Assembly: GCF_017696175.1 (NCBI RefSeq)
Contig: NZ_JAAORE010000002.1
Span: forward strand, 1 to 64,000
Length of the DNA stretch: 64,000 nucleotides
Origin: Prochlorococcus marinus XMU1404
GTDB lineage: Bacteria; Cyanobacteriota; Cyanobacteriia; PCC-6307; Cyanobiaceae
Reading direction: 5' to 3'
In this document: positions 6,784-42,927 of the stretch, in pieces
Position numbering within the stretch: the first letter of the stretch is position 1
How the letters are laid out: every line of letters begins with the position of its first letter
Notes under the pieces: generated by a model
What the model saw: only the letters and a program-made list of their open reading frames with translations
What the model was told of the DNA's origin: nothing
Databases searched by the model: none
Program-made: the position numbers and the translations under genes

Positions 6784-6784
6784 A

Positions 6785-11798: not shown

Positions 11799-12620
11799 AT
11801 GAATTATTTTTTTGTTTATGCAACTTTCTTTGTACTAGGAGCATGTTTTGGAAGTTTTATTAATGTCATAAGATATAGATTTCCTCGAGACATTTCGATA
11901 ATAAGTCCTAGAAGTTTTTGTCCTCAATGTAAAACACCAATTCCTTTTTATTTAAATATTCCAATTTTTTCATGGTTTTTTTTAAAAGGGAAATGTAATT
12001 TTTGCAAAACTAAAATCTCCTTTTCGTATCCTTTAATAGAATTTTTTACCGCTTCTTTTTTTGTTTTTAATACTTTCTTCAGTAATTATTTTTCCTCAAT
12101 ATACCTTTTAGATTTATTCTATTTAAATATTTTTAGCACCTTATTGATTATCATCTCTTTAATTGATTTTGATAATATGATAATTCCAAATAAGTTATTA
12201 ATTATTGGATCGTGTTTAGGATTCTTTTTTAATTTAATTAAATATACTTTTTTGGGAAATCAAACTTTTTTGTATGTATTCTACAAATTTATAATTTTAT
12301 CTTTTTTAGCTTTTATTTTTTTGGAGATGTTAAATCTGATAATTTCTTTCTTTCTAAAAAAAGATGCCTTTGGATTTGGAGATAGTAAATATCTTTTCAT
12401 GCTATCTACTTGGCTAGGCTTTTATGGAGTTATTTGTACCTTTGTATTGTCTTTATATATTGGAGGTGTAATTACTATTTTTTTGATCATCTCAAAAAAG
12501 ATAAACTCTTCTGGGAAAATACCCTTTGGTCCTTATTTATCTATTGCTGCTTATGTTGTAAGTTTATTGGGACCAAACAATATAGTTTTATTCCTTAAAA
12601 ATTTTTATAAACTAGCCTAG
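11799..12620 (+). CDS. pilD: Type IV prepilin leader peptidase / N-methyltransferase (PilD)
   Basis: The protein has 273 residues and is strongly hydrophobic with about eight membrane segments. The N-terminal GSFINVIRYRFP and two CxxC pairs (FCPQCKTP and CNFCKTK) form the zinc-binding cytoplasmic domain of bifunctional PilD. The two catalytic aspartates of the A24 aspartyl protease family are visible in SLIDFDNMIIPNK and FGFGDSKYL. It removes the short leader of prepilins and methylates the new N-terminal Phe. It precedes five prepilin-type genes on the same strand. Confidence 0.93.
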   Translation: MNYFFVYATFFVLGACFGSFINVIRYRFPRDISIISPRSFCPQCKTPIPFYLNIPIFSWFFLKGKCNFCKTKISFSYPLIEFFTASFFVFNTFFSNYFSSIYLLDLFYLNIFSTLLIIISLIDFDNMIIPNKLLIIGSCLGFFFNLIKYTFLGNQTFLYVFYKFIILSFLAFIFLEMLNLIISFFLKKDAFGFGDSKYLFMLSTWLGFYGVICTFVLSLYIGGVITIFLIISKKINSSGKIPFGPYLSIAAYVVSLLGPNNIVLFLKNFYKLA

Positions 12621-12695: not shown

Positions 12696-13013
12696 ATGAA
12701 AATATTTTTCAAATTTTTTTTACTCTCTACAATATCAGTCTTTGTTAATGGTGATGTGTATGCATCTAAATCTTTAGATAAAAAGTTTATGAATAGTTTT
12801 AATAACTATAAAACATATGAGAAAGTAATAGAACCTCAAAATCAATTTTATAATTTACTTGGCATTAAAGGATATGCTGATCAAAGGCTTAAGAAAAGTA
12901 GTTTCAAATTACGGAATATTTACAAAATAGAGTCATCAAAACAAATAGGTAAATATAGATTAAATGGATCTGATATTAACAACACTTTTAATGAGAGTCT
13001 TCAAGATTTTTAA
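12696..13013 (+). CDS. Small secreted protein of the pilus locus
   Basis: The protein has 105 residues. It begins with a clear export signal (MKIFFKFFLLSTISVFV ending near VYA) and continues as a Lys/Tyr/Asn-rich soluble domain. I do not recognise a family, and there is no prepilin motif or cysteine pair. Its place between the prepilin peptidase and the first prepilin suggests a periplasmic or surface role in pilus function. Confidence 0.6.
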   Translation: MKIFFKFFLLSTISVFVNGDVYASKSLDKKFMNSFNNYKTYEKVIEPQNQFYNLLGIKGYADQRLKKSSFKLRNIYKIESSKQIGKYRLNGSDINNTFNESLQDF

Positions 13014-13100: not shown

Positions 13101-13739
13101 ATGAAATTAAATATTAATATTTTCTCTAAAAATAAAAATTTGGAAGAAGGATTCACAATTACTGAACTTTTGATATCAATCGTGATTCTGGCTGTTATGG
13201 TAAGTCTTTCAATTCCTAGTGCTTTAAGGTGGATAGAAAAAGAACAACAGAATGCTTATCTAAGAGAGTTAATCAGTTATTTAGAACTTTTAAAAAAAGA
13301 AACACGAAGGTGGAATGGGACTTGTGAAGTAAAAACTAATAGTTTTGCAAAAAACATTTATGACCCAATTACACGCAAAAGAAAGTCAGAAAAGGCTTTT
13401 ATTGTAGATTGCGAAGGAATGGATAAAAACCAAAAACTAAGAATTGCAAGGCAGGTGCCATTAATAGGGGAAAAAGTTTTTCAGGAAACAAGTCAAAAAA
13501 ATTTTAATTTTACTCCGAAGGGTTATCTTTCATTGCCAGATAATGAAACTAGTTTAGTAATAATTATTGGAGGCAGGTCAAAAGGGAGATTTTACCAAAG
13601 ACCTAAATGCATATTTATGGAAGCACCAATTGGATTGATTAAGTCTGGGTTTTATCAATCAAACTATTTATTTTTTTCAGATAGAGATGGGAATAGGCAA
13701 AACTCTGGATTAAGAAAACAATTTTGCTATGCAATGTAG
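13101..13739 (+). CDS. Prepilin-like protein (GspH-type minor pilin)
   Basis: The protein has 212 residues. A short leader ends in EEG, followed by the mature N-terminus FTITELLISIVILAVMV, with Glu at +5 and a hydrophobic helix as required for PilD processing and pilus assembly. The globular part has Cys residues (GTCEVK, DCEGMD, KCIF, QFCYAM) that could form disulfides. Its length and strand-rich second half suggest a GspH/FimT-like minor pilin. Confidence 0.8.
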   Translation: MKLNINIFSKNKNLEEGFTITELLISIVILAVMVSLSIPSALRWIEKEQQNAYLRELISYLELLKKETRRWNGTCEVKTNSFAKNIYDPITRKRKSEKAFIVDCEGMDKNQKLRIARQVPLIGEKVFQETSQKNFNFTPKGYLSLPDNETSLVIIIGGRSKGRFYQRPKCIFMEAPIGLIKSGFYQSNYLFFSDRDGNRQNSGLRKQFCYAM

Positions 13740-13848: not shown

Positions 13849-14430
13849 ATGAATACATTTTTTTTAATGACTTCTTCGTTTAAAAGATACTTAATTAACT
13901 ACCTTTCTAATAGAAAGCTTAAATCCCAATCTGCTTTTACATTAGTTGAACTTATAGTAGTGGTAGTAATAATTGGAGTTTTATCTTCTATAGCTATTCC
14001 TAGTTTCCAAAATGCTAGTGATAAAGCAAAGCAGAAAGAAGCTTCTTCAATGATTGCTTCTTACTTAAAAGCCGCACAAGCTTACTATACTGAATACGGA
14101 CAAGGCGTTACTTTTTCTTCTCAACTTGGTGAGTATGTAAACGTAACAGGTTGTAGACAATTTGATCCTCAGTATTGCAAAAATAATAACAGCGCAACAG
14201 TTAATTGGTCATCTACAAATAGAAATCAGTGGTTTACTCCAACAGGTAACTATAGAATAGAAATGCAATTAAATGGCTCTAGATTAAATTTCTTAGGTTA
14301 TCCACATAACACTACCTCTGGATTGGGAGTAATTGGTTGCTATGATTACTCTTCTGGAGCAACCAGACTAAAAGAAAATGGTGGAAATGAGAAGGGTACT
14401 AATTTTGTAAGGAATATAAACTGCAGTTAA
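13849..14430 (+). CDS. pilA: Type IV pilin, probable major pilin (PilA/GspG-like)
   Basis: The protein has 193 residues. The leader of about 30 residues is long; processing would occur before FTLVELIVVVVIIGVLSSI, where Glu+5 is present. The classic helix is followed by a region typical of cyanobacterial PilA (AIPSFQNASDKAKQKEA, then AYYTEYGQG). Four Cys residues in the globular domain (GCRQF, QYCK, GCYDY, final NCS) could form two disulfides. It is the best PilA match among the prepilins here. Confidence 0.87.
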   Translation: MNTFFLMTSSFKRYLINYLSNRKLKSQSAFTLVELIVVVVIIGVLSSIAIPSFQNASDKAKQKEASSMIASYLKAAQAYYTEYGQGVTFSSQLGEYVNVTGCRQFDPQYCKNNNSATVNWSSTNRNQWFTPTGNYRIEMQLNGSRLNFLGYPHNTTSGLGVIGCYDYSSGATRLKENGGNEKGTNFVRNINCS

Positions 14431-14454: not shown

Positions 14455-16740
14455 GTGAGCAATATTTTTTCTTCAAAAAAAATAAATATTTCTATACATA
14501 ATAAACTTTTTTATAAAATACAAAATAGGGCTTCAGAAAACAAAGCTTTTGCTTTGCCTCAAATTTTAGTTTTAGCCATTGGAATATCAATAACTTTAGT
14601 TGGATTAATGAATGTCTCAATTAACAGACTTTCAACTTCTAAATTAAGTAATGCTGAAATGCAGGCTAAAAATGCAACTGAGTCTGCTTTTAATTCTTTA
14701 AGAACTCTTTTGAATAATAGTGGGAATGTACCTTATTACTATTATTGGTTATTAAAAACGTGCTCTATTGACTCCAGCAATAATGAATGCCCAACTTTTG
14801 GAGGAGGTAAATATGGAAATCAGTGGCCTGGCTATTTAAATAAAGGAAAATTTCGTGATCCATCTACTTTATATTGGGTAGATACCAATAGTGAATGGTG
14901 TGATGGAATATCTTCTCCTACTTGTATTGGAAGACAAGTAGCCCCAGCTTGCTCATATTTAGGCAGAGATGCACGTATTTCCCAAATTCCATGGAACTTA
15001 TATTCAAATAGTTTGGATATTTTACTCAATGGTGAAGAGAAAAGAATCAGTTCAAGCATTAATAGTTCTAACATTCAAAGTTTTCTAATAAAATCAACCG
15101 ACTTTGTTGGCGATGAATATGGTGGCGAAAATTCTGTATTGTTTGAGGGATATAACGCATCTTCAAAAGATCCAAATATAAAAAATTCGACTAATAAAAT
15201 AAGAGCAAATATTGAAGTATTTAAGTCTGTTTCTGATTCTGGATTTGCATTCATTAGTGCAGGTGAAAATGTAAGGGATGAAAATTCACTTTTTTTGGGA
15301 AATTTCAAGACCCTTAATAATAAGCAAAAAGGATCTATATTATGGAGAAAAAATATTGATCCCAATAGGGCTTATTTTGAATGTAATAAAATTAAAATGG
15401 AATCTGGAATAAAAAATTATTCTAGATTACCTGATAATTCTAATGATGGAGGAGGGCTATGGGTCCAACCACTTGCATTACCTTCCAGACCAATGATAAA
15501 GAATCAAGGGCAATTAGGTTCTATTTGGAATCCTTCTACTAACCAGATCGTTTGTCTAGGGGATCAAAAATTTGGTCAATATTTTGGGCCAAACTGCAGA
15601 TTCCTCGAAAAAGATGGTTTTAATAATTATGCGAATAAAGATAGGACATATACAATAGATGATTTAGTTGTAAGAGGCAAAGATGCTTATTTTGGCATAG
15701 TAACTACTGATAAATCGAGAGTTACATTAATAGTAAGGGGATCTATAGATTTAAGTTATGGAGGGAGGATTTGTCACAGACATGGAGGACCTAACGGTAA
15801 ATGTGGTTCGGGGAAACCAGAAAACTTAACAATCTTATTTCAACAACCTGCACAAAAAGGTGGTAAACAAAGATTAGAATGTTCCTCAAATGGCGGTATA
15901 AGATATGTAAAAGATAAAAATTTAAATATCCCAATTAATCATGATAATAATATTCCATTTAACACGTTCAACTTATCATTAGGCACTGGACAAAATAATG
16001 AATTTTTTAGTGCTTTTGTTTATGCTCCTGATACGACATTTTCTGTTGCTACTCCAGAAACAATATACTATTCAAGGGCTGGTGAGCCTTGGAATCTTGT
16101 CTCTACAGTTAAAGGGGTATACGCTTTAGTAGATTATCCAGGAGGCACGTCTGATCAAAGAACTCCAAAACTTTTTCGTAATATTAAAGGTGGTTTAATA
16201 CCTTATACAACTACTCCAGACACTTCTTCATGGGATAGAAATACGCATGGATTTGATGACGTTTTTATCATTGCTGCTGGAAGACGAGGAGAAAAATCAA
16301 AACCGCAAATAAATAGTATGCTAAATATGGCTCTTTTATGGGATTCAATAGCTGATAATTATTTACTTGTTGGATTCGAATCTCAAGGAAATGATTTGAA
16401 ATTTGTTGATAGAAATTTAGAAGGACGAGCATGGAAAGTTAATTTAGGAAATAACCCTTGGCTTAAAGATCAAACAGGAGATAGCATTATTCATCACTAT
16501 GGAATGGAATTAAGACAAGTTTCCGATTTATCGGAGGACTCATCTTTTAAAGGATCTATTTGGGTTAAAAATGCATGTTTTGACAAAAATGGTAAGGGTG
16601 AGGTTTCTTGGGACTTCAACAGTAACTATAAAGATGATCTTGTTAAACGTTTTAACTATAATAATCAATATTATTTTGGCGTTCCATATTATAGAGGCAA
16701 GTCGATAAAAGTTTGGGATACCTTGAGAACCTTTAATTGA
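14455..16740 (+). CDS. Very large prepilin-like protein (GspK/PilX-like), possible tip subunit
   Basis: The protein has 761 residues from GTG 14455; no ATG precedes the prepilin segment. The segment NKAFALPQILVLAIGISITL has a class III-like cleavage context but Gln rather than Glu at +5. Lack of Glu+5 is characteristic of GspK-type subunits that cap pseudopili. The remaining 700 residues are Gly/Asn/Ser-rich with several Cys residues and include DDLVVRGKDAYFGIV and CHRHGG stretches. I do not recognise a specific enzymatic domain. It lies between the main pilin and the other minor pilins, spaced 10 bases from the next gene, so an adhesive or initiating tip role is reasonable. Confidence 0.75.
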   Translation: MSNIFSSKKINISIHNKLFYKIQNRASENKAFALPQILVLAIGISITLVGLMNVSINRLSTSKLSNAEMQAKNATESAFNSLRTLLNNSGNVPYYYYWLLKTCSIDSSNNECPTFGGGKYGNQWPGYLNKGKFRDPSTLYWVDTNSEWCDGISSPTCIGRQVAPACSYLGRDARISQIPWNLYSNSLDILLNGEEKRISSSINSSNIQSFLIKSTDFVGDEYGGENSVLFEGYNASSKDPNIKNSTNKIRANIEVFKSVSDSGFAFISAGENVRDENSLFLGNFKTLNNKQKGSILWRKNIDPNRAYFECNKIKMESGIKNYSRLPDNSNDGGGLWVQPLALPSRPMIKNQGQLGSIWNPSTNQIVCLGDQKFGQYFGPNCRFLEKDGFNNYANKDRTYTIDDLVVRGKDAYFGIVTTDKSRVTLIVRGSIDLSYGGRICHRHGGPNGKCGSGKPENLTILFQQPAQKGGKQRLECSSNGGIRYVKDKNLNIPINHDNNIPFNTFNLSLGTGQNNEFFSAFVYAPDTTFSVATPETIYYSRAGEPWNLVSTVKGVYALVDYPGGTSDQRTPKLFRNIKGGLIPYTTTPDTSSWDRNTHGFDDVFIIAAGRRGEKSKPQINSMLNMALLWDSIADNYLLVGFESQGNDLKFVDRNLEGRAWKVNLGNNPWLKDQTGDSIIHHYGMELRQVSDLSEDSSFKGSIWVKNACFDKNGKGEVSWDFNSNYKDDLVKRFNYNNQYYFGVPYYRGKSIKVWDTLRTFN

Positions 16741-16749
16741 TTTTTAGCT

Positions 16750-17355
16750 ATGAAAAGATTATTTCGGGGGGATTTAAAATTTAGTTTTTTAAAACAAGAA
16801 GGTTTCGGATTAAGTGAAACTATCCTCAGTCTTATGATGCTCTCTTTTATAACAACTTATGCCTTATATTTTGTAACACTTAGGCAAATAAATTTATATA
16901 AGGCAAATTTAAATAATGCAATTAATGATGAGATTAGAAGAGATATAGAAAAATTAAAATCTGAATTATGGTATGAGCACTATAATGCCCCACAAGGAAA
17001 TATGAGCGCATTTTATAGTATTGGTCTTTCATCTTCTGAACCAAAATTTTATTGTGGAGATATTTTAAGAACATTTTTAAGATTGCCTAGTTGGCAAAAT
17101 AGGATTTGGACCCCTGGTTCTAGTGATTCAAATTATACTGGTCAAAAAAGAAACAAAATTTTTTCGGGTCAAGGAGTAAGAATTGAGAGAAAAGTTGACT
17201 CTCAAAGACCATTTAATATGGGAAATGATTCAGTAATTGATAAAAGTATTGCTGAAATAACTTATATTGTTACTACTAAAGATAACAGTTCTCAATGGAC
17301 TAGCATTCAACTAAGTAGTGAAGCACACAGCTGGTGTCCACCCTCTTATGAATAA
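16750..17355 (+). CDS. Minor prepilin-like protein (PilV/GspI-type)
   Basis: The protein has 201 residues. The leader ends in KQEG, followed by FGLSETILSLMMLSFITTY with Glu at +5. The globular region has Cys in FYCGDIL and at SWCPPSYE near the end. It lies 10 bases after the 761-residue prepilin and 3 bases before the von Willebrand A prepilin, so all three are probably cotranslated and may form a tip complex like GspI-J-K. Confidence 0.78.
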   Translation: MKRLFRGDLKFSFLKQEGFGLSETILSLMMLSFITTYALYFVTLRQINLYKANLNNAINDEIRRDIEKLKSELWYEHYNAPQGNMSAFYSIGLSSSEPKFYCGDILRTFLRLPSWQNRIWTPGSSDSNYTGQKRNKIFSGQGVRIERKVDSQRPFNMGNDSVIDKSIAEITYIVTTKDNSSQWTSIQLSSEAHSWCPPSYE

Positions 17356-17358
17356 AAA

Positions 17359-18756
17359 ATGAAGTCTGTTTTTTCTTATAAATATATATTCTCATTAGTG
17401 AATAAAAGATCAAATAAATATGGTTTTACGCTCCCAGAACTTATAGTTTCTGGATTTGTTTCTCTATTAATTCTTATATCAGGATATACTCTCTTAAAAA
17501 TGAATTTACAAGTAAATAATTCTGATGAATTAAATCTTAAATTAGGAGGAAAAATAAATAATGCTTTAGATTTTATTGTTGATGAAATAAATAGCAGTAA
17601 AAGAGTAATAACAACTTACAATGATGTTCCAAATTCATGTCGCCCTTTACCACAAGGTGATTTAGTACTTGCTTTGAAAATGCCTGATCAAGCAAAAAGT
17701 AGTTCGTCTTATCAAACTTCTAATATGGGTAATGAATCTAAAACAAAAAAACAAAATTGGGTTACTTTAGCAAAAGATTGCCCTATTTTTTATAATTTAG
17801 TTAGAGATTACACTTTTAGTGGTAAAGGCATATCATACATACTTAAACGAACAGGACCCACAGTAGATGAACAAGGATTTTATAGAGCTACAGATATTAA
17901 AACTACTGTTGTTACGGATAGAATTAGAAGTGATTTTGAAGATGATATAAGGTGCTTAACAACTAATAACCAAAAATGGACTAGGAAACAGATAAAAGGG
18001 ATTATTTTATGTACTGATGAAAAAGGTAAAGGTGCTGAAATAATGATTAATGCAGAAGCCTCTAGAGTTAGAAATCCATTAATCATATTTAAAACTTCAG
18101 GAGGTTACGCAAGGATTCAGGATGATGATTTAATGAATTTAGGAAATGCTGGGGCTGGAAATTTAGGGATTAACCCACCTTGTACTAACTGTGACTTTTT
18201 TCAAAAACCTCTAAAGAAGAAAGTAACTTTTTTTATTGATATATCTGGATCTATGAATTGGGGAAAGATAAAGGGGCTTACACCTATGGAGGCAGCAAAA
18301 AATGAATTAATTAACAGTATTAGAGCTTTACCAGTTAATCAAGGTTTTAAATTACAAGTAGTTGCATTCAACCATTGGTCTAGAAAAATGTGGTCTTCAC
18401 CTATGGAGGTTACCACTAGTTCAAAAATGTATGCTATTTCTTGGGTTAGTAGATTAACAGCCGGCGGAGGTACAAACCCATGGTCAGGAATTTCAGAAGC
18501 TATTCAAAATTCAGAAGTTCAGCAAATTGCTGTTCTCTCAGATGGATGGACAAAAACATCAGGACGTTGTTTTAATAATGGAAAGTCTTATTCATATGCA
18601 GAATGTTTTAAGGACTATAACGATAGCGTTAGAGCAACTAATGAGGAGGGAACAGTGCAGATTGATTCTTTTTCTATGAGAAATGATTTTTGTTCAAATG
18701 GATGGATGGGAGAACTTTCCTCTAAAAATTCAGGAAGCTGTACTCACATTAATTAA
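17359..18756 (+). CDS. Prepilin-like protein (PilW/GspJ-type) fused to a von Willebrand factor A domain
   Basis: The protein has 465 residues. The N-terminus has a prepilin motif (KYG then FTLPELIVSGFVSLLILISG, Glu+5) and a GspJ/PilW-like region to about residue 270. From about residue 288 a von Willebrand A domain follows: FFIDISGSM gives the metal-site DxSxS, GGGTNPWSG supplies the Thr, and AVLSDGW supplies the Asp, so the MIDAS site looks complete. Such domains bind ligands through a divalent cation and are known at pilus tips in other families (PilC/PilY1, pilus adhesins of Gram-positives). A pilus-tip adhesin is the best inference. The end contains four Cys residues. Confidence 0.85.
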   Translation: MKSVFSYKYIFSLVNKRSNKYGFTLPELIVSGFVSLLILISGYTLLKMNLQVNNSDELNLKLGGKINNALDFIVDEINSSKRVITTYNDVPNSCRPLPQGDLVLALKMPDQAKSSSSYQTSNMGNESKTKKQNWVTLAKDCPIFYNLVRDYTFSGKGISYILKRTGPTVDEQGFYRATDIKTTVVTDRIRSDFEDDIRCLTTNNQKWTRKQIKGIILCTDEKGKGAEIMINAEASRVRNPLIIFKTSGGYARIQDDDLMNLGNAGAGNLGINPPCTNCDFFQKPLKKKVTFFIDISGSMNWGKIKGLTPMEAAKNELINSIRALPVNQGFKLQVVAFNHWSRKMWSSPMEVTTSSKMYAISWVSRLTAGGGTNPWSGISEAIQNSEVQQIAVLSDGWTKTSGRCFNNGKSYSYAECFKDYNDSVRATNEEGTVQIDSFSMRNDFCSNGWMGELSSKNSGSCTHIN

Positions 18757-18758
18757 AT

Positions 18759-20948
18759 TTAATAAGCTGAATTTTCTTTGATAAATTCTTTTGCTTCTTC
18801 TGAATTAGGTTTGTAGCCTATTTCAGAGGGATCAGATTCGAGTGAATTCAGTATTTGAGGGGTAACTAGGATAACTAGTTCTCTTTTATCTTTCGAAGAT
18901 ACTGTTTTCCTAAAAATTTGTCCAATTATGGGTAAATCTCCTAATATTGGCCATTTTGTAACTGTCTCGTTTTCAGTAGAGTCTAATACTCCAGTAAGAA
19001 TTAATGTATTCCCATCTTTTACTCTGATAGAACCACTATCAAGTCTTCTGGTTGCTAGGAGGTCAACAGTTGCACAATTTTCTATTAGTCTTTGTTCAGA
19101 TTTTGAAGAAATAGCAGGTGAGATTGAGAAAGTAACATAACCATTATCATCTATCCTTGAGATCCTAGCTCCAAAAGTTAATCCTGCTATTCCATATTCA
19201 AGAGTAGCTACACTGGATTCGGGATCAAAAGTACAATTAATTGGTACTTGAGTCCCAACAATTACAAAGGCTTCGTTACCATAGGATCTCCCTATTGTCC
19301 CAGCCTTTAAAGTGTCGTTAACGCTACTAAAAGTAACTGTATCTCCACCAGTACTTCCTGGAAATTCATTAAGTATCAAAGTTGGATTAGCAATTATTTT
19401 TGTATCTTTAGAAGCAATATCAGCTCTTAACAAATCTATAAAGGTTTGATTAGGGAAAGTGCCTGAATTATTTGTAGCAGCAGCAGATCCAAAATTTGCT
19501 TCTGTTGGGGGAGTAATACTATTAACAGTACCTAGTAACTTACCTCCTGCATTTACTATGAACTTATTACCTTGTCTAAATGCCCAGCTATTATCTAGCG
19601 TAGTTCCATCTGAGATATTAACATCAAGTATTCTAACTGTAAGTGCTACCTGCCTTTGCCTTAAATCTAGTTGCTTTATATAGGTCTCAGCTACTTTAAT
19701 CAAATCTGGATTCCCTATTAGAGTAATAGTCTGTAACCTATCGTCCGTAGTAGCAATTAATCCTAAAAGTGGACCGGCATTACCGCCGTAACTTCTTACA
19801 GAAGTAGTAGACTCTTGCGTTGTTGTTGCTGAAGAGGCTGCTCCTGATACAGATTGAGATTGGCTCGCTCCAGAAGTGACAGCAGTCGTAATTGTATTAG
19901 TTTGCGTAACTTTTGCACCTAAATTTGCTAGATAAGAAGCTGCTGCGTTGGCAGTGGTTTGATTGAGCCGATAAATCCTTGATATTCTCTCTGAAAAAAT
20001 TCTATCTTGAACATCTGGTCCTACGTAAACTATGCCGTTTTCTAATTTAGCTTCTAATCCGCTAGACATCAGAATTGAATTAAAAGCAACTGAAAATGGT
20101 TTGTCCTTGATAGTAAGTGTTATGTATCGAGGGGAATCTGATACCTTTTCATTTTCACTTCCCGGACCGTCTTCGCTTGTTATGTTAAAAGTATTTGAAT
20201 TTGCAAAATCAGAACCTTTATCCTTATTCGCATCAAATGTTGGATCTTGCTGCACCCAAACATAACCATAATTTGTTTTAGAAATCAAAAATTCAATGGC
20301 ACTTTTTGCAGTGGCCCCTTCAAATACCATGGAAACATTTGGCCCTTCTAATTTAACTGTTTTTAGGTTAGGAATATAAGTTGTTCCAACTGCAATATCT
20401 CCTAGTGGAGGAGCTGAGGCTCTTCTTGAAATATTTGCGTTATTTTCTGCTTTGATAAGAGGTTTAACTGAAAAGATATTTTCTTCTGTAAGAATATTTG
20501 GAGGTAATGATTGCTTTGGAAATGTCATTTTCAAAGTATCATTTATGACTGATAGTTCAGGTTGAGAAAAAAGAATTTCATCTAAAGGAGTAATAACAAT
20601 ATCTACAATATCGTCGTTACCAGACAAGGTCAAAGTTTTAATGCCTACTGAAGGAATGGATAAACTTTGAAAAGATTTTTGATATTTTGAATTTTCAGTT
20701 TTTATATTAATGCTTATTAGATCTTTTTTTATATTTTTTGTTATTTGGGGATTTTCCCCTATTCCAGAAAGCAAAATATCAATATTTTGGTCATTAGAGC
20801 TATCTGTTTTTAATACTAAATTATTGGATTTTTTTATAGATTGAGAAATTAATTCATTCTTATTTAAAATTTCTTCTGAATAAACACTTATATAAGAAAA
20901 GGATAAAATTGATATAGGAATTAATAGTAGAGAATATATTCTTTTCAT
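18759..20948 (-). CDS. pilQ: Type IV pilus secretin PilQ
   Basis: The protein has 729 residues with an N-terminal signal peptide (MKRIYSLLLIPISILSFSY). Regions resembling the STN/N0 fold (VSMVFEGATAKSAIEFLI) and N1 (ISRIYRLNQTTANAAASYL) precede a Ser/Thr-rich loop and the secretin domain at about 430-715 (VALTVRILDVN, then the closing GNTLILTGVLDS, PILGDLPIIGQIFR and ELVILVTPQIL). It forms the outer-membrane ring through which the pilus exits. It ends 2 bases from the oppositely oriented vWA prepilin and is last in the pilP-M-N-O-Q operon. Confidence 0.92.
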   Translation of the reverse strand: MKRIYSLLLIPISILSFSYISVYSEEILNKNELISQSIKKSNNLVLKTDSSNDQNIDILLSGIGENPQITKNIKKDLISINIKTENSKYQKSFQSLSIPSVGIKTLTLSGNDDIVDIVITPLDEILFSQPELSVINDTLKMTFPKQSLPPNILTEENIFSVKPLIKAENNANISRRASAPPLGDIAVGTTYIPNLKTVKLEGPNVSMVFEGATAKSAIEFLISKTNYGYVWVQQDPTFDANKDKGSDFANSNTFNITSEDGPGSENEKVSDSPRYITLTIKDKPFSVAFNSILMSSGLEAKLENGIVYVGPDVQDRIFSERISRIYRLNQTTANAAASYLANLGAKVTQTNTITTAVTSGASQSQSVSGAASSATTTQESTTSVRSYGGNAGPLLGLIATTDDRLQTITLIGNPDLIKVAETYIKQLDLRQRQVALTVRILDVNISDGTTLDNSWAFRQGNKFIVNAGGKLLGTVNSITPPTEANFGSAAATNNSGTFPNQTFIDLLRADIASKDTKIIANPTLILNEFPGSTGGDTVTFSSVNDTLKAGTIGRSYGNEAFVIVGTQVPINCTFDPESSVATLEYGIAGLTFGARISRIDDNGYVTFSISPAISSKSEQRLIENCATVDLLATRRLDSGSIRVKDGNTLILTGVLDSTENETVTKWPILGDLPIIGQIFRKTVSSKDKRELVILVTPQILNSLESDPSEIGYKPNSEEAKEFIKENSAY

Positions 20949-21037: not shown

Positions 21038-21970
21038 TCATTTTTCTTTATAGTAAGGGATGTTTACAATAATGCGAGCATCAATTTCTCCTTCAATTGA
21101 AGGACTATTAATATCACTTATATTATTAGATGATTCTCCTGCCATTCTTGGTTCAAAACAATAAGGCAAAATAAAAATCTTATATTCCTGTATATACTTT
21201 ATGAAATTAAGGCTGTTTAAATAGTTAGATTTTATATTTATTAAATAATAATTTGATTGAAAAATGTCACTCACCTTTTTTGTTAATGAATTAAATTCTA
21301 GAGTGCCATCTTTTTCGTCTAAATTAAATTTATATACCTTTTTTTTAGATCCACTTTCTATATTGCCATAATCGTAAGAATAATTGTTATTAATTGGACT
21401 TATTTGACTTTCAAAATTATTTAAATTGTTATTGTTAAATTCTTTATTTGAAATAAATTCAGTATTAAAAAGTTCTTCCTCTGATTTTGTTGTACAAGAT
21501 GATAATTCATCTTTACTTATTGGAGAAAATTCAATAATCTCAGTATTTGATTTTAAAGCAGATTCAAATAATATTTCAGGTATTAAAACTAGATCTTCTT
21601 TTTTTGGAACTAATGATACAAATTCAGAATACAATTTCCTAAAAGAAATTATTGATTTTGATCTTTCTTTTAATTTCTCGATAATTAAAGGTAACTCTAT
21701 ATTCTCACTCTTATATTGGGAAGATTTTTCTTGAGTATTTTTCAATGATTCAATAGATGGAAAAAAAAACAAAATTGAACTTAAAGAAGCAAATAATATT
21801 CCTATTGAAGGATAAAAATAATTTGACTTAGTGATCTCTTTTAGGTCACTAAGTTTTATTGATCTAATATCTTCTACGTTTATACTTTTAGCCTTTTCTA
21901 ATAACTCTCCTACATCAATGGTCTTAAGTCTTTCTATGAATTGTTGAAAAGTTAGATTTTTATTTCTCAT
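21038..21970 (-). CDS. pilO: PilO-like type IV pilus alignment-complex protein
   Basis: The protein has 310 residues with a cytoplasmic N-terminus of about 50 residues, one membrane helix (YFYPSIGILFASLSSILFFF), a coiled-coil stretch and a periplasmic domain. Sequence conservation is weak, but its position directly after the PilN-like gene (5-base gap) and before pilQ, and its topology, fit PilO. It would pair with PilN in the inner membrane. Confidence 0.72.
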   Translation of the reverse strand: MRNKNLTFQQFIERLKTIDVGELLEKAKSINVEDIRSIKLSDLKEITKSNYFYPSIGILFASLSSILFFFPSIESLKNTQEKSSQYKSENIELPLIIEKLKERSKSIISFRKLYSEFVSLVPKKEDLVLIPEILFESALKSNTEIIEFSPISKDELSSCTTKSEEELFNTEFISNKEFNNNNLNNFESQISPINNNYSYDYGNIESGSKKKVYKFNLDEKDGTLEFNSLTKKVSDIFQSNYYLINIKSNYLNSLNFIKYIQEYKIFILPYCFEPRMAGESSNNISDINSPSIEGEIDARIIVNIPYYKEK

Positions 21971-21975
21971 TTTTT

Positions 21976-22725
21976 TTATTTTAGCAATTCTAGTAATTTT
22001 AAATAAAGACTCAATTTTTTATATACACCATTATTATCAGATTCCTCATGAAAATTTATTCTTTCGATAAGAGAAAAATGATTGATTTTCCCAGATATCT
22101 CTAAAACTATAGATTTATTATTAGTAAATTCTTCTGGGTTCTGAGTCGAACCGGGTGATTGGTTAACAAGTCTATTTATTTTCAAGGATTTATTATCTAT
22201 GATTTCATTTTCTAAGAGTAATGAAATAAACTTTTTTGTAGAATCTGATCCTTCACTAATAGCATTTAATTTAAATCCAACATTATCAACTGTGTAGTCA
22301 ACTAATTGAACATTTTTGGGTATTGAATCTTGCAATAAGAAAGCGAATAAATAAGTAGGTGCTGGATTTGAGAGTAATGATGAATGCTTTTTTAAATTTT
22401 TAAAATTCCTCTCTCTCTCACGATTGATTTTATTCAAAGAATTAACTTTCTCTTCATATTCAATATGTTTTACCTCCAATCTATTTATGTTGAATTTTGG
22501 AATTAATGAAATCATTTCAATAATAATTACTCCACTTAAGACAATAAAAGAAGGTACATATAATATTTTTTTTGTTTTTAATGAGTTTAATAAATTTGGA
22601 TATGTTTTTAAAATTTTTAATAATTTATATTTATAAATATTCTCAGTAGAGTCTAGATTTACATCTTTTTTAAAATCCCATAAGTTTATGTTTTCATAAT
22701 TATTAGCGAAGTTATAATCTTTCAT
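21976..22725 (-). CDS. pilN: PilN-like type IV pilus alignment-complex protein
   Basis: The protein has 249 residues. A cytoplasmic tail begins MKDYNFANNYENINLWDFKK (the INLxxx motif by which PilN docks into PilM), then comes one membrane helix (YVPSFIVLSGVIIIEMISLI), a coiled coil (YEEKVNSLNKINRERER) and a periplasmic ferredoxin-like domain. The start overlaps the PilM stop by 4 bases. Confidence 0.8.
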   Translation of the reverse strand: MKDYNFANNYENINLWDFKKDVNLDSTENIYKYKLLKILKTYPNLLNSLKTKKILYVPSFIVLSGVIIIEMISLIPKFNINRLEVKHIEYEEKVNSLNKINRERERNFKNLKKHSSLLSNPAPTYLFAFLLQDSIPKNVQLVDYTVDNVGFKLNAISEGSDSTKKFISLLLENEIIDNKSLKINRLVNQSPGSTQNPEEFTNNKSIVLEISGKINHFSLIERINFHEESDNNGVYKKLSLYLKLLELLK

Positions 22726-24116
22726 TTCGTAATATTATCTAATATGCAAGCAAATGAATTTAAAATACTATGATTTAATTTGAGATCTAAATCCTTACTA
22801 GATTCAACCTTATAATTATTTTCAGGAATTTTTAGAAAACCTTTTTTTATATAAGTATTCAGTGAGAGCATTCTATCAATTCCATTTCCGTTAATGTAAA
22901 AATCACCATCAAAATGGATATTATTATCTTTAAGTATTTTCTTCACAGATTTATCAAGCCTCGAAAACAATTCATTATTTAAACTAACTTTATTTGTTAT
23001 GTAAATTGAACTTCCAAAAGGTAATCTTGTTGAAATTAATTCACAATCTTTTCTAGTTAGGTAGACAGTAGTGGAATTATTACCAATATCACATAAGATA
23101 GATATCTCTTCAGAATTACTAATAAGATTTTCAGCTAGGTGAATAGCTCCACATGTAACTGTGGCAATTTTTGATCCTGATAATGAAATAACATTTATCC
23201 ATGAGTCAATATGTTCTTTATTAGCGTAGATCACTCTATGGTAGCAACTTTTAGCATCACCATTTACTCTTTTAGATTGGATTAAAGTATTATCTGGTAA
23301 GTAGGGACTTTTCGAGAGTATTTTAGGATCTTCTTCTGAAAAGACTACTAAATCATTATTGCTAAATGATCTAGTTATAAAAAATGAGGAACTTAAAAGA
23401 ACAATTATTGGCGGATTATTCAAGCCAAAGATATTTGAAATGTCATCAATTATTCTTTTGACTTCAGGAACTTTTTCAACTTTAAAATCTCCAATTAAAT
23501 CTCCCGGGATATTTATATTTACTATATCTTTAATAATATTTCTATTGTTTTGCCTTTGAAGGTGTGTGGCGGTCAATATATTATCGACATAAGATATTCC
23601 TAAAAACTCATTTACTATGATGTCTTTTTTGTAATCACGCCTTGGAGAATTATTAATGGAATACTTTTTTAAAAAATTTTTAACTTTATAAAAATTTTTA
23701 ATTTTAAAAATATCATCCAAAATATTAAGATCAAAAATTCTAATTTTGTTTTTTTTACTTAAAACGCTTCTCGCTTTTAAGAGATAATTTTCCTTAAAAT
23801 ATTTTGTGCTTGCATATATTTTAAGTTTTTCTAATAATTCTGAAATTGGTTTAAATCTTTTTTTTAGAGCTTTATTCTTAGTAGTTGATTTATGTTTTTT
23901 TATTATTTGAAGTTTAGAAATTGAAAAATTAAAAATGGAATTATTTTTTGATGTGTTTCTTGATTTAAATGAAAAAGATTTTAATTTACTATTATTTTTC
24001 CAGATTTCTTTTATTTTTTCTTTCCTGTTTGAAAATTTATTTATTAAATAATTATTCTTCAAAGAAAAATTCAACAATTTATTTTTTTCCAAAAATAATT
24101 TAATTTTATTAATCAT
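22722..24116 (-). CDS. pilM: PilM-like actin-fold ATPase of the pilus assembly platform
   Basis: The protein has 464 residues. A very basic, low-complexity N-terminal extension of about 150 residues precedes the PilM/FtsA-like actin fold. Visible parts are EFLGISYVDNILTATHL (strand 1), ILCDIGNNSTTVYLTRKD (phosphate-2 motif) and ISTRLPFGSSIYIT. PilM normally has about 350-380 residues, so the Lys/Asn-rich extension is unusual. It overlaps the upstream PilP-like gene by 8 bases and pilN by 4. Confidence 0.8.
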   Translation of the reverse strand: MINKIKLFLEKNKLLNFSLKNNYLINKFSNRKEKIKEIWKNNSKLKSFSFKSRNTSKNNSIFNFSISKLQIIKKHKSTTKNKALKKRFKPISELLEKLKIYASTKYFKENYLLKARSVLSKKNKIRIFDLNILDDIFKIKNFYKVKNFLKKYSINNSPRRDYKKDIIVNEFLGISYVDNILTATHLQRQNNRNIIKDIVNINIPGDLIGDFKVEKVPEVKRIIDDISNIFGLNNPPIIVLLSSSFFITRSFSNNDLVVFSEEDPKILSKSPYLPDNTLIQSKRVNGDAKSCYHRVIYANKEHIDSWINVISLSGSKIATVTCGAIHLAENLISNSEEISILCDIGNNSTTVYLTRKDCELISTRLPFGSSIYITNKVSLNNELFSRLDKSVKKILKDNNIHFDGDFYINGNGIDRMLSLNTYIKKGFLKIPENNYKVESSKDLDLKLNHSILNSFACILDNITK

Positions 24117-24561
24117 TCTGCTTTAATTTTATAATTTGAGTTTTGTTTTGGCCAGTTATTTCAACTTCCAAATTGTTTCCATTGATATTGGATACTTTAA
24201 ATCCTCCTCCAATAACTTCTCCTACTTCATAGGCTTTAACACCACTTGAAGTTTCAATGAATACATATTCTTTATTTCCCGTTTTAGCAATTCCTTTTAA
24301 TTCTAGACCATTTAAACTTATTGATTGAGCACTAGAGTTATTGTTTATGGAAGGTAAGAATGGATTTCTAGTATTTAATGAATTTTTTTCTATTTCAGAA
24401 ACTTTAGTCTTAGGGATATCTTTCAAATCTAAACTAAAAGATTCAAGTTTTCTTTCATTAGTTATTTGATTACTATTTAACCCTTTATTAAAATTCATCT
24501 CAGATTGCTCTGCTGATATTAATAAAGTGGGATACAAAAAAAGAAAAATTAAAAACTTCAT
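24109..24561 (-). CDS. PilP/GspC-like periplasmic protein at head of the pilMNOQ operon
   Basis: The protein has 150 residues. The N-terminus is a signal peptide (MKFLIFLFLYPTLLISAE). After a disordered linker, the C-terminal domain (LNGLELKGIAKTGNKEYVFI, then AYEVGEVIGGGFKVSNI) has the pattern of the homology region shared by PilP and GspC, which connects the PilN/O complex to the secretin. Cyanobacterial pilus operons often lack an annotated pilP, so this is of interest. It starts the operon, divergent from pilB by 169 bases. Confidence 0.6.
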   Translation of the reverse strand: MKFLIFLFLYPTLLISAEQSEMNFNKGLNSNQITNERKLESFSLDLKDIPKTKVSEIEKNSLNTRNPFLPSINNNSSAQSISLNGLELKGIAKTGNKEYVFIETSSGVKAYEVGEVIGGGFKVSNINGNNLEVEITGQNKTQIIKLKQND

Positions 24562-24730: not shown

Positions 24731-26494
24731 ATGAGTAATAAACTTAAAGAAAATAAAATAGAAGAACATACTAAAAATAAAATATATGAATATTTATCTA
24801 GTGAACAGGTTTTAAATGCTGGTATAGTTTTTATTTCTATGTCAAATTATGATATTAAATTAGGAGCAATGAATCCTATTTATCAAAAAGTTATTGACAT
24901 AAAGTTAGAACTAGAAACTGAATTTTCATTAAATGTAGAAATAAATCAAATCTCAACCGAAGAATGGGAAAAATGGAATTCTGATATTATCTCCTCAAAA
25001 GAAGATTTCTCCAATTCTCTTACTAAGAATGCCGATCAAAAATCAATCAATAATGAGGATTATAATAAACCTATTAATGAATCATTAAATTCAGATAAAA
25101 ATAAAGATACTAATAAGATCAATACAAAAATTGAAAAAGAAAAAAATTCATTAAATTCCTCCCTTTTACAGGAAATGCTTAATGATGAGTTTTCTGATGG
25201 TTTGATTTCTAATAAAGATGATAAATTTGATTTGTTTGATGAGGATAATGATTTGGAGGAGGAAGATGAACTAGATATTATTGAAGATACTGAGCTGAAA
25301 GATAATGAAGATCCAGTTATTAAAGCAGCAGGCTCAATATTATCAACATGTTCTAGATTAAAAGCGTCAGATATACATGCAGAACCTCTCGAAGATAGAA
25401 TGCGAATAAGGTATAGGATTGATGGTGTTTTAAAAGAAGTATATTCTTTGCCCAAAGCCAAAGCTAAGGCAATAACAAGTAGGCTTAAAGTTATGAGTAA
25501 GCTTGATATCGCTGAAAAAAGATTGCCTCAAGATGGGAGAATAAGATGTCGAATTAATGAAGTTATTTCTGATTTTAGAGTAAGTACTCTTCCAGGAAAA
25601 TGGGGAGAAAAAATTGTACTAAGAGCTCTTCAATCAGATTCTTCAATGTTGGATTTGGATAAACTTATAACCTCTAAGGATGAATTATCTAAAGTAAGAG
25701 AGATGGGTAGTTTCCCTTATGGAATTTTCATAGTTGTTGGACCTACTGGAAGTGGAAAATCAACGACATTATATTCGATTCTTAATGAAAGAAATACTCC
25801 AGATGTCAACATTAGTACTGTTGAGGATCCTGTTGAATATACATTAGATGGTATTCATCAAGTTCAAGTAATTAGAGAAAAAGGTCTTGATTTTGCACTT
25901 GCTCTTAGATCTTTAATGAGACAAGATCCTGATATAATTCTTGTAGGTGAAACTAGAGATAAAGAAACAGCCCAAACTGCTATGGAAGCAGCATTAACAG
26001 GTCATATGGTTTTCACAACTCTGCATGCGAATGATACCGCTACAGCAATAACTCGTCTTAATGAAATGGGAATCCCCCCATATTTGGTTGGATCCTCTGT
26101 AGTGGGTGTTATGGCTCAAAGATTAATAAGGAAGATTTGCCACAAATGTTGCACTACCAGAAATGTTGATCCTCAGAAAGATAAATTAGCTCACGAACAT
26201 GGTATTCAAGTTCTAAAAAAAGCAAATGTATTAGACCTATCAAATAACGCTAGTAAAGATTTATGTCCAATATGTAATGGTACTGGCTATAAAGGTAGAT
26301 TAGGATTGTTTGAAGTGATGAAAGTTAATGACTCAATTAGAGAATTAATAATGAAATCAAGTACCGCAGACATTATAAGAAATTGTGCTTTAAACAATGG
26401 AGTAAAAAGTTTGCTTGATTATGGTTTAGATTTAGTAAAAGATGGTTTGACAACTATTGAAGAAGTTGAAAGAGTTTGTTTACTAAATGATTAA
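24731..26494 (+). CDS. pilB: Type IV pilus extension ATPase PilB
   Basis: The protein has 587 residues. A divergent N-terminal domain and a long acidic linker (EDNDLEEEDELDIIEDTE) precede the hexameric secretion-ATPase core. Visible motifs are Walker A GPTGSGKST at about 337, the Asp box EDPVEYTLDG, Walker B DPDIILVGETRD, the His box TLHANDTATA, and the tetracysteine zinc motif CHKCC with CPICNGTGYKGR at about 470-520. It powers pilus polymerisation. It starts an operon with pilT 4 bases downstream and is divergent from the pilP-Q operon. Confidence 0.95.
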   Translation: MSNKLKENKIEEHTKNKIYEYLSSEQVLNAGIVFISMSNYDIKLGAMNPIYQKVIDIKLELETEFSLNVEINQISTEEWEKWNSDIISSKEDFSNSLTKNADQKSINNEDYNKPINESLNSDKNKDTNKINTKIEKEKNSLNSSLLQEMLNDEFSDGLISNKDDKFDLFDEDNDLEEEDELDIIEDTELKDNEDPVIKAAGSILSTCSRLKASDIHAEPLEDRMRIRYRIDGVLKEVYSLPKAKAKAITSRLKVMSKLDIAEKRLPQDGRIRCRINEVISDFRVSTLPGKWGEKIVLRALQSDSSMLDLDKLITSKDELSKVREMGSFPYGIFIVVGPTGSGKSTTLYSILNERNTPDVNISTVEDPVEYTLDGIHQVQVIREKGLDFALALRSLMRQDPDIILVGETRDKETAQTAMEAALTGHMVFTTLHANDTATAITRLNEMGIPPYLVGSSVVGVMAQRLIRKICHKCCTTRNVDPQKDKLAHEHGIQVLKKANVLDLSNNASKDLCPICNGTGYKGRLGLFEVMKVNDSIRELIMKSSTADIIRNCALNNGVKSLLDYGLDLVKDGLTTIEEVERVCLLND

Positions 26495-26498
26495 ATAA

Positions 26499-27584
26499 AT
26501 GTCTCAACTAGATTTAACTATTACTAATTTGATGTCAGATTTAGTAAAGAGGAACGGATCTGATTTACACCTTACAGGAGATTCCATCCCTTTTTTCAGA
26601 ATTCAGGGGTCAATCCTGCCAGCAAGTGAAAATATATTTAAAGAAGATCATTTGATTTCTGATTTAAAAGAAATTTTGGGGGAAGATAAAATTAGGTCTT
26701 TTTATAATGAAAAGGAACTTGACTGTAGTTACGGACTTGAAGGTATAGCAAGATTTAGATTAAATATTTTCTTTGATCGTGGAAAGATATCCTGTGTAAT
26801 GAGAGCCTTAAGTACTAAAATTCCAAGTTTTTCCCAAATAGGTTTACCTGATAGTGTTCAGCAATTATTACAACGTCCAAGAGGTTTAATATTGGTGACT
26901 GGTCCCACTGGTTCAGGTAAGACTACTACCCTAGCAAGCTCAATAGACTGGATAAATTCTAATAATGCTCATCATATTTTAACAATTGAAGATCCAATAG
27001 AATTCGTTTTTGAAAATAAGAATTGCCTTGTTAGACAACGGGAAGTTGGAGAAGATACCATTTCATTCTCAAAAGCCCTTAGGTCAGCTCTCAGAGAAGA
27101 TCCTGACATCATTCTAGTAGGTGAAATGAGAGACCTTGAAACAATTAGTCTTGCTATAACAGCTGCAGAAACAGGTCATTTGGTAATGGGCACATTACAT
27201 ACTTCTTCTGCATCTCAAACTATCGACAGAATCATAGATGTCTTCCCAACATCTCAACAGCAACAAATTAGAGTCCAGCTATCTGGTTCACTAATAGGTG
27301 TTATTTCACAAACTTTATGTAAAACAAAAGAGAATAAAAGAACATTGGCTGCCGAGATTTTAGTAAATAATAATGCTATTGCTAATCTAATTAGAGAGGC
27401 TAAATCTTCTCAGGTATATTCTCAATTACAAGTTGGGGCAAAATATGGTATGCAAACTCTTGAACAGGCGTTATCTAGAAATGTTATAAGTGGTGCAATC
27501 ACAAAGGAAGAAGCTTTTTATAAATGTAATAGACCTAACGTACTTCAAGGTCTTTTGGATAATGAAGAGAATAACGAAAATTAA
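26499..27584 (+). CDS. pilT: Type IV pilus retraction ATPase PilT
   Basis: The protein has 361 residues, the usual PilT length. Motifs include GSDLHLTGDSIPFFRI near the N-terminus, Walker A GPTGSGKTTT at about 135, EDPIEF, Walker B DPDIILVGEMRD, the His box TLHTSSASQTIDRI, and the retraction-specific segment AIANLIREAK (canonical AIRNLIRE). PilT depolymerises pili, so these pili are probably retractile and could support DNA uptake or motility. Confidence 0.95.
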   Translation: MSQLDLTITNLMSDLVKRNGSDLHLTGDSIPFFRIQGSILPASENIFKEDHLISDLKEILGEDKIRSFYNEKELDCSYGLEGIARFRLNIFFDRGKISCVMRALSTKIPSFSQIGLPDSVQQLLQRPRGLILVTGPTGSGKTTTLASSIDWINSNNAHHILTIEDPIEFVFENKNCLVRQREVGEDTISFSKALRSALREDPDIILVGEMRDLETISLAITAAETGHLVMGTLHTSSASQTIDRIIDVFPTSQQQQIRVQLSGSLIGVISQTLCKTKENKRTLAAEILVNNNAIANLIREAKSSQVYSQLQVGAKYGMQTLEQALSRNVISGAITKEEAFYKCNRPNVLQGLLDNEENNEN

Positions 27585-27592
27585 TTGATAAT

Positions 27593-28858
27593 ATGGAATA
27601 TGGTTTTGTCAGAGACTCAGAATTAAGGGAGAGATTAGAAAAGGCAAGAAAAGAAGGAATTAATAAATTTGAAAATAACAATATTTCGGTTAATAATCAA
27701 ATTGGTAAATTAAGTGAAACTAGGAATTCATTAAAAAAGAAAAAACCTATCCCTAATAAAAAATTTGAAAATTTAAAGTCAAAGAAAAAAAGATATAAAA
27801 AAAGAAGGCTTAAGCCCCCATCGACAAAAACCTTAGCTGTTTCTACTAAACAATTATCTTCTATGATAAGGACAGGACTTCCACTTTTGGAAGCATTAAA
27901 TATATTATCTGAAAGTAGTGATAATAAGACTCTAAAGGCTGTATTTAAAGAGGCATCAATTGGTATTAGTAGAGGAACCACCTTTAAAGAAATATTAGAA
28001 AAACATCCGGAAATTTTTGATGAAATGTATTTAGCATTGGTATCTGCTGGAGAAACAGCAGGTCTTCTCCCAGAGGTCTTAGATAGAGAAGCAAAATTGT
28101 TAGAAAGTCTCTCTAAAATAAAAGGCCAAATTCAGAGTGCATTAACTTATCCAATAGCTATCTTTATTCTTACAGTAATTGTAATTATCATAATGCTCGT
28201 TTTTGTTATTCCAGTTTTTGTAGATATGTATTCATCTTCAGGGGCGGATTTGCCTGCCCTCACTCTGTTTCTTGTAAATGCATCAAATGCAATAAAAAAT
28301 CCACTTTTCCTCTTAAAAGCTCTACCTCTTTTAGCAATAGGATTTGTTTTTGTAAGGAAACAAATTAAAACCAATAGATTTATCAATTGGAGGGATCAAA
28401 TGTTACTCAAATTGCCAATTACTAAGGAACTAGTAACAAAATCTTGTTTAGCAAATTTCTCAAGAACACTTAGTTCATTAAATTCTGCAGGAGTCCCTAT
28501 CCTAGAGTCACTTATGATTTCGAAAAGAACCCTTGGGAACAGAGTATTCCAAAGAATTGTGGATAAAATGAATACTGAGATCCAGGCTGGTCAACCTATC
28601 TATAAAGTTTTAGCTTCAGAAGTTAAAGTTATCCCTATAATGTTTACTTCAATGTTTAGGATTGGAGAAGAAACAGGCGAATTAAGTGAAATGGTTGATA
28701 AACTCGCAGACTTTTATGAAGATGAGGTTTCAACAAGTGTTAAATCTTTGACCTCTATATTAGAGCCTTTAATGATAGTATTCGTAGCTATTGTAGTGGC
28801 TTTTATCTTAGTGGCAATGTATTTACCTATGTTTAATATGATGAGCACTGTTGGGTAA
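27593..28858 (+). CDS. pilC: Type IV pilus inner-membrane platform protein PilC
   Basis: The protein has 421 residues. A basic N-terminal tail of about 75 residues is followed by two GspF-type domains: LSSMIRTGLPLLEALNIL and FSRTLSSLNSAGVPILESL, each closed by membrane helices (ILTVIVIIIMLVFVIPVFV and LMIVFVAIVVAFILVAMYL). It anchors PilB and PilT. It lies 8 bases after pilT and completes the pilB-T-C operon. Confidence 0.94.
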   Translation: MEYGFVRDSELRERLEKARKEGINKFENNNISVNNQIGKLSETRNSLKKKKPIPNKKFENLKSKKKRYKKRRLKPPSTKTLAVSTKQLSSMIRTGLPLLEALNILSESSDNKTLKAVFKEASIGISRGTTFKEILEKHPEIFDEMYLALVSAGETAGLLPEVLDREAKLLESLSKIKGQIQSALTYPIAIFILTVIVIIIMLVFVIPVFVDMYSSSGADLPALTLFLVNASNAIKNPLFLLKALPLLAIGFVFVRKQIKTNRFINWRDQMLLKLPITKELVTKSCLANFSRTLSSLNSAGVPILESLMISKRTLGNRVFQRIVDKMNTEIQAGQPIYKVLASEVKVIPIMFTSMFRIGEETGELSEMVDKLADFYEDEVSTSVKSLTSILEPLMIVFVAIVVAFILVAMYLPMFNMMSTVG

Positions 28859-33886: not shown

Positions 33887-34020
33887 GATAAAAAAAACGT
33901 ATGTAAATAACCCGTACTGGAAGAATAACTCTACCTGTGGCGTCTGCAACCATTCTTACCACTATTTAACGGTTTGTGTAGAATTATGTTTAATATGAAA
34001 TCTTTGTTTCAAGAAAGGAC

Positions 34021-42923: not shown

Positions 42924-42927
42924 TTAA

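Follow-up and report, generated by a model that had tools for sequence, protein, structure and literature searches.

Does a minor pilin that carries a von Willebrand A (vWA) domain act as a metal-dependent adhesin at the pilus tip of a free-living picocyanobacterium, and what does this domain do in relatives whose MIDAS is incomplete? The question is raised by a gene in the window, namely the 64,000-nucleotide stretch of Prochlorococcus marinus XMU1404 DNA analyzed here, which is located at the beginning of contig 2 in a genome of 1.67 Mb.

A prepilin-vWA fusion gene in a type IV pilus locus

The gene (17359..18756, + strand) begins with ATG and encodes 465 residues, whose bimodular layout was delineated with Pfam and AlphaFold2. 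A short leader precedes the prepilin motif GFTLPE (aa 22-27; 17422..17439, +; read by eye), in which a Glu occupies position +5 past the cleavage Gly; Phe23, Thr24, Glu27, and Leu28 are invariant in all 15 rows of our alignment A1. The pilin module extends from aa 22 to about aa 250 (17422..18108, +) and is modeled by AlphaFold2 with low-to-moderate confidence; it is followed by a low-confidence linker at about aa 251-279 (18109..18195, +), which holds Cys275 and Cys278, and by the vWA module at aa 280-465 (18196..18753, +), which was recognized by Pfam, AlphaFold2, a PDB profile search, Foldseek, and VIA-align. A MIDAS is defined in print as DxS/TxS/T, T, D (PMC12607857). The corresponding residues of the fusion, read from the sequence and from an alignment to the pilin PilB of Streptococcus sanguinis, are (i) Asp294, Ser296, and Ser298 of motif 1, DISGS (in FIDISGSM; 18238..18252, +), (ii) Thr372 within GGGTNPW (18472..18474, +), and (iii) Asp395 within LSDGW (18541..18543, +), which aligns to PilB Asp319, where the mutant structure 7ba2 (D319A) has an Ala.

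The sequence-only reading of this DNA had proposed a prepilin and a C-terminal vWA domain joined in one ORF, with an intact MIDAS quoted as DISGS, GGGT, and SDGW. Both proposals are borne out, the first by the extent of the reading frame, GFTLPE, and a match to VWA_3, and the second by the presence of all three quoted motifs and all five residues. Its label of the protein as GspJ/PilW-type found no such backing, as the curated PilW and GspJ models gave zero matches at E<=1 in Pfam and NCBIfam, and membership by curated models was accordingly rejected. PilW/GspJ minor pilins have a large head. The fusion resembles them in this respect and in being placed among minor prepilins, and differs in its added C-terminal vWA domain, as well as in matching no curated model.

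Among Pfam models, VWA_3 (PF13768) matches aa 289-401 with 28.5 bits against a cut-off of 27, and VWA_2 and VWA match below their cut-offs; the sole NCBIfam match, TIGR03788 (marine sortase target; aa 271-396, 44.4 bits), lies far under its cut-off. VWA_3 detects just 6 of the 15 members of alignment A1, so annotation would overlook many such proteins. N_methyl, the Pfam model for the prepilin motif, matches 12 of these 15 members, the fusion of the window itself being unmatched.

The fusion gene belongs to an apparently complete type IV pilus locus at 11.8-28.9 kb of the window. Downstream of the prepilin peptidase gene pilD (11799..12620, +; PF06750, PF01478), it closes a row of prepilin genes starting at 13101, 13849, 14455, 16750, and 17359. 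The first four encode (i) a minor prepilin, FimU/GspH-like by motif and order (13101..13739, +; N_methyl, with GspH among the models below cut-off), (ii) the major-type pilin PilA (13849..14430, +; N_methyl and NCBIfam), (iii) a 761-residue prepilin-like protein, GspK/PilX-like by motif and position only (14455..16740, +), and (iv) a minor prepilin with the motif GFGLSE, GspI/PilV-like by motif and order only and unmatched in Pfam and NCBIfam (16750..17355, +). Convergent with the fusion gene lies that of the secretin PilQ (18759..20948, −; PF00263), followed by four ORFs at the PilO, PilN, PilM, and PilP positions, named by order and lacking Pfam matches (21038..24561, −), and by the genes for a PilB-type extension ATPase (24731..26494, +; PF00437, with NCBIfam GspE and PilB below cut-off), the retraction ATPase PilT (26499..27584, +; TIGR01420 over cut-off), and the platform protein PilC (27593..28858, +; PF00482). 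The order pilA, 761-residue type, GspI type, fusion, and PilQ is kept in eight loci (L109-L114, L116, and L117); in three others (L118, L102, and L106) an H-type pilin sits between the I-type pilin and the vWA-pilin.

The 761-residue protein has many conserved cysteines, and all 9 rows of alignment A5 show a Gln instead of a Glu at +5; GspK-type tip pilins generally lack this Glu. It has no family match in Pfam or NCBIfam, and its AlphaFold2 model (mean pLDDT 57.3) gave no Foldseek match at E<=0.001.

Other genes of the window are recorded here as separate observations. A small ORF with a signal-like N terminus (12696-13013) matches no family over cut-off and has a relative in 1 of 17 compared loci (L113), several of which may not extend that far. 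Beside the pilus island, a very large surface-type protein (3-5738, −), incomplete because the contig starts within it, has cadherin-like repeats and a C-type lectin domain; it adjoins a HlyB/HlyD-like pair (6764-10719, +; NCBIfam matches below cut-off) and constitutes a second adhesin candidate. Further right lies an ABC transporter (41421-44558, −) with a binding protein that scores above the cut-offs of two models, a putative selenate one and one for phosphate/phosphite/phosphonate.

Nearest relatives and spread of the fusion

The AlphaFold2 model of the fusion, built from 10 sequences, has a mean pLDDT of 66.5 and a pTM of 0.47. Its vWA domain is continuous over aa 280-465, with 10-residue blocks of aa 281-465 at pLDDT 76-92 right to the C terminus; pLDDT falls below 50 at aa 1-57, in some loops, and in the linker region (aa 235-277), and the pilin module is modeled as a long helix (aa 54-79) with several strands. 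VIA-align returned many vWA domains at Z 15-18, among them 6pyo_B (Z 17.9, rmsd 2.1 over 147 aligned residues); the 50 matches listed there do not include PilB, which does not speak against a relationship. When 177,635 distinct PDB sequences were screened at E<=0.1 with a profile built from 17 relatives, two of them matched, namely wild-type PilB (7b7p, E 2.3e-7) and the D319A mutant of this protein (7ba2, E 2.5e-6). The profile was needed for this, since the single fusion protein gave zero PDB matches by plain phmmer. We judged the MIDAS from this alignment, in which the DxSGS, T, and D of the profile fall onto the PilB MIDAS and the Ala of 7ba2 occupies the Asp395 column. Foldseek likewise ranks PilB chains first to third, both modules together aligning at rmsd 22-23, which means that the modules were matched singly and that their mutual arrangement is not established by the match. 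Both by sequence and by Foldseek, PilB is thus closest to the fusion among solved proteins.

A 2021 paper described PilB as a bimodular pilin, with structure and function. Its metal binding (Kd about 70 uM) is reported to require Asp319, to be abolished by D319A, and to be important for twitching and for adhesion to cells, whereas piliation is unaffected in D319A cells and no pili are formed upon pilB deletion (PMC8179133). In purified form, D319A and wild-type protein bind fibronectin and fibrinogen equally well, so metal is unnecessary for these ligands in vitro; more than 1,200 modular pilins were counted, with the vWA architecture within the 15 commonest (PMC8179133). Caulobacter CpaL is a second published pilin-vWA protein (PMC12607857). 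Because the layout of PilB and CpaL is already in print, a pilin-vWA fusion is a known kind of protein, and the compact tip design that the sequence-only reading had seen in it finds no support as an unusual one.

The fusion shares with PilB a prepilin N terminus with Glu5, a linker, a C-terminal vWA domain with an aligned MIDAS, a type IV pilus system, and a similar size (454 residues in mature PilB, 465 in the Prochlorococcus precursor). PilB comes from a monoderm host and has human protein ligands, whereas the fusion resides in a diderm marine cyanobacterium; moreover, and unlike in PilB, the vWA cysteines are conserved in the Prochlorococcus type and the MIDAS is gone in some relatives. 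Caulobacter crescentus CpaL similarly combines a minor pilin-like module with a vWA domain, a predicted MIDAS, and a proposed tip position. CpaL belongs to a Tad pilus, and its vWA domain is split by two beta-rich domains, whereas the fusion locus has a PilB-type ATPase, PilT, PilC, and PilQ; the uninterrupted vWA domain (aa 280-465) and the PilT-family ATPase above cut-off led us to reject the CpaL (Tad) type. PilY1/PilC tip adhesins also have a vWA domain, with a MIDAS in some members, which minor pilins present at the type IV pilus tip. These are separate proteins with a C-terminal beta-propeller (PF05567), and this type was rejected because Pfam finds no such domain in the fusion; a PF05567 search of the genome was silent, as it was for all 14 controls, so it carries no weight for other genes.

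The search in other marine cyanobacteria that the sequence-only reading had called for was fruitful: 77 distinct full-length fusions of the same architecture were found, the protein of the window included, a number that counts sequences (with second copies from some genomes) and not independent events. They were drawn from retrieved loci, some rows coming from a related-locus search, and leave out partial or contig-end matches (L007, L022, L101, L107, and L108) and matches in the pilin half only. Automatic trimming at a prepilin-like motif may have made some N termini too short or too long (e.g., L083, 432 residues) and leaves the MIDAS columns unaffected. The profile matches 103 of 400 family genomes at 1e-5, some in the pilin half only. 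At the class level, 216 of 388 genomes match; among the matches listed, every full-length one belongs to the family of the window, and outside this family the best one spans only profile positions 6-213. This class search used a profile of the window's pilin family, which unrelated pilin-vWA fusions elsewhere would escape. Of the 400 genomes searched, 24 have a close PilC (E<1e-140), and 23 of these show a fusion match as well, the remaining one being 57% complete; seven same-genus genomes with a distant PilC only (E 1.5e-61 to 3.8e-69) show none.

That the protein is a chance resemblance or a mis-joined ORF is practically inconceivable. This explanation can draw on the narrow pass of VWA_3, the sole Pfam vWA model over its cut-off (28.5 against 27 bits), and runs against the 77 full-length fusions, the profile matches to PilB, and the vWA fold at Z 17.9; we consider it refuted by the conserved single-frame architecture.

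Several loci deserve separate mention. Locus L109 (PBXW01000005.1), labeled as a Crocinitomicaceae MAG and containing unread bases, carries a Prochlorococcus-type pilus operon with PilQ pieces 72-82% identical to the window's, and its contig is probably mis-binned. Locus L062 (genome G282, same genus) has a second, orphan fusion copy with intact MIDAS (3836-5209) that adjoins PilC about 11 kb from the operon copy, near ORFs that by eye are AAA ATPase-like and helix-turn-helix-like. Two different full-length, MIDAS-intact fusions lie about 7-13 kb apart on the same contig in six Synechococcus-type genomes (G101, G222, G169, G277, G295, and G301; e.g., L024/L073/L105), and G327 has two full-length fusions on separate contigs.

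Conservation and decay of the MIDAS

The MIDAS is intact in 60 of the 77 aligned full-length fusions and incomplete in 17. The Asp of column 395 is gone in 16 of the latter, being replaced by Ala in 11, Ser in 2, and Gly in 3; the 17th, L023, differs by a Thr-to-Ser change only and, judging by this substitution, may retain metal binding. The 11 proteins with Ala are natural equivalents of PilB D319A. Loss of the domain in relatives, a prospect raised by the sequence-only reading, was not encountered in full-length relatives: the vWA domain is kept in all 77 proteins, and its MIDAS is incomplete in 17. Prepilins that match in the pilin half only do exist in the family. Metal-dependent adhesion is therefore not universal among these proteins.

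When the 12 intact Prochlorococcus-type domains alone serve as the profile, 16 of the 17 MIDAS-less proteins are recovered at E<1e-32 and L100 at 2e-8, similarities by which the MIDAS-less C-terminal halves are true relatives of the intact domains. In the Synechococcus-type group (49 rows, not picked for intactness and including one MIDAS-less row), all five MIDAS columns fall within the 29 near-invariant columns of 175 in the vWA domain (P 9e-5); in the Prochlorococcus-type set (12 rows, picked for intactness), they fall within 28 of 182 (P 6e-5). Such near-invariance suggests that selection acts on the metal site in the intact groups.

With the motif columns excluded from tree building, the MIDAS state changes three times (bootstrap range 3-3), the MIDAS-less rows forming one clade of 14, one pair, and one single. 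The tree is unrooted, was built with no mixture model, and carries warnings for long branches (L100, L097, L010, L018, and L092), for long branches that meet, and for odd composition in seven rows. An unrooted tree alone cannot tell gain from loss; since intact members occur in both deep groups, we infer that the direction was loss. No second full-length fusion was found in the 17 genomes with a MIDAS-less one, several of these genomes being incomplete.

The vWA dN/dS of MIDAS-less proteins is 0.11-0.20 (six pairs), within the 0.05-0.41 of intact ones (eight pairs), in pairs that were hand-picked among near neighbors and some of which share a row. By this measure, the MIDAS-less domains remain under purifying selection. 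Retention of the domain under such selection after decay of its MIDAS suggests that it has a role that needs no metal, most likely tip assembly or metal-independent binding.

These same observations could be read as a mainly structural role of the vWA module, which would cap or prime the tip complex, with MIDAS adhesion secondary and dropped where pili serve as drag and not as anchors. Besides the retained domain with dN/dS of 0.11-0.20 over six pairs and the 11 of 77 fusions with Ala at the PilB Asp319 column, this explanation is consistent with the piliation of PilB D319A cells as opposed to the pilB deletion (PMC8179133). It also agrees with the reported finding that pili of marine Synechococcus slow sinking and that picocyanobacterial pili provide drag and escape from grazers (PMC7994388). 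The near-invariant MIDAS in the 12 intact Prochlorococcus-type rows and in the Synechococcus-type group argues against adhesion being secondary, and we regard a mainly structural module as rather unlikely.

A further possibility, which we hold to be improbable, is that the vWA module is a surface-contact mechanosensor, as proposed for PilY1 and CpaL. All 12 intact Prochlorococcus-type rows and 16 of the 17 MIDAS-less rows share Cys404, Cys445, and Cys461, and disulfide-dependent force sensing is reported for the PilY1 vWA domain (PMC9210963, PMC12607857). All three cysteines are, however, absent from 48 of 48 intact Synechococcus-type rows.

Alternative islands at nrdJ and the proposed role of the tip

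On its right, the pilus island is flanked by the conserved gene nrdJ (31553..33949, −; TIGR02505), which was found in 51 of the genus's 61 genomes and is 92-98% identical where full length. As in the window, the pilus island ends adjoining nrdJ in two genomes with MIDAS-less fusions, G095 and G191. Starting at nrdJ and moving right, the 13 ORFs compared are 91-99% (G095) and 86-97% (G191) identical to those of the window; matching pilus proteins of G095 and the window are 27-83% identical, with the vWA-pilin at 27%. The distance from the last shared left-flank gene to nrdJ is only about 4-6 kb in G152, G229, and G362, with no relative of the G095 pilus proteins in between, and G264 has other genes at the slot (about 9 kb). 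Within 20 kb to the left of nrdJ, G211 has a different type IV pilus system, whose PilQ, PilT, PilB, and PilC are 36-53% identical to those of G095 and which has no vWA-pilin match there, and G374 has other content; for both, the shared left flank lies beyond the 20 kb compared, and that of the window is cut by the contig start. As two further MIDAS-less genomes, G259 and G117, have no nrdJ within 20 kb on either side of the island, not every island occupies the nrdJ slot.

The region left of nrdJ is thus variable (window 11.8-31 kb, and G095, G191, G152, G229, G264, G362, G374, and G211): it holds two vWA-type pilus islands, a third type of type IV pilus, or just a few kb, and elsewhere, by eye, sugar- or surface-type genes and a mobile-element-like block. 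It is conceivable, though less likely than not, that one Prochlorococcus slot hosts alternative type IV pilus islands with a tip pilin whose metal-dependent adhesin is either working or naturally disabled, so that adhesive and non-adhesive pili would be exchangeable, selected states within a single planktonic genus. Many MIDAS-less proteins show the Asp-to-Ala substitution that had been engineered in PilB, and on this view their vWA domain would be kept for a metal-independent role at the tip.

Islands at the same site whose minor prepilins are 27-38% identical, against 86-99% for flanking genes, would also be expected if the vWA module were an exposed, varying receptor or decoy selected mainly for escape from phages or grazers. 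Against this, the phage records contain no match to the fusion protein at 1e-5, and the vWA dN/dS is well under 1 in all 14 pairs; we therefore consider such a receptor or decoy quite improbable.

The reading that we prefer, with a probability of roughly 0.7, is that the fusion would be a modular minor pilin of the PilB kind that presents a Mg-dependent tip adhesin, its vWA module also having a metal-independent job. As the motif and the locus suggest, PilD would process the precursor at the Gly of its GFTLPE motif, and the helix at its N terminus would be inserted into the filament. By analogy with PilB, the fusion and its FimU-, GspI-, and GspK-like neighbors may form a priming tip complex; a head of such size is expected to fit the tip only, as was modeled for PilB, which is why we place it there. 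The vWA domain would be displayed at the tip, where its MIDAS, proposed to be functional because it is intact and conserved, would hold Mg2+ and bind a ligand on particles, cells, or polymers. Because a pilT gene is present, retraction after binding is possible, provided that PilT has its predicted activity. Seawater contains Mg2+ at tens of mM, far above the Kd of PilB, so the MIDAS would always be filled, and a metal sensor is unlikely. In some planktonic lineages, adhesion is most likely dispensable, and, given the reported role in drag and grazer escape, a lost metal site would be in keeping with pili whose tip module is required for assembly and not for gripping.

In the open-licence literature searched (titles and abstract starts), we found no description of a pilin-vWA fusion for marine cyanobacteria or of natural MIDAS loss in pilins, and nothing in print on a tip function of marine picocyanobacterial pili; the available parts of PMC7994388 and PMC12288463 do not mention von Willebrand or vWA. 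What is added here is a natural series of MIDAS-less proteins, together with alternative islands that share one site. The MIDAS-less proteins carry the warning that a pilin-borne vWA domain alone does not imply metal-dependent adhesion, and the MIDAS-less versions are ready-made natural controls for distinguishing the pilus as a drag device from the pilus as an adhesin. The fusion, common in its family, is a concrete candidate for the tip of marine picocyanobacterial pili.
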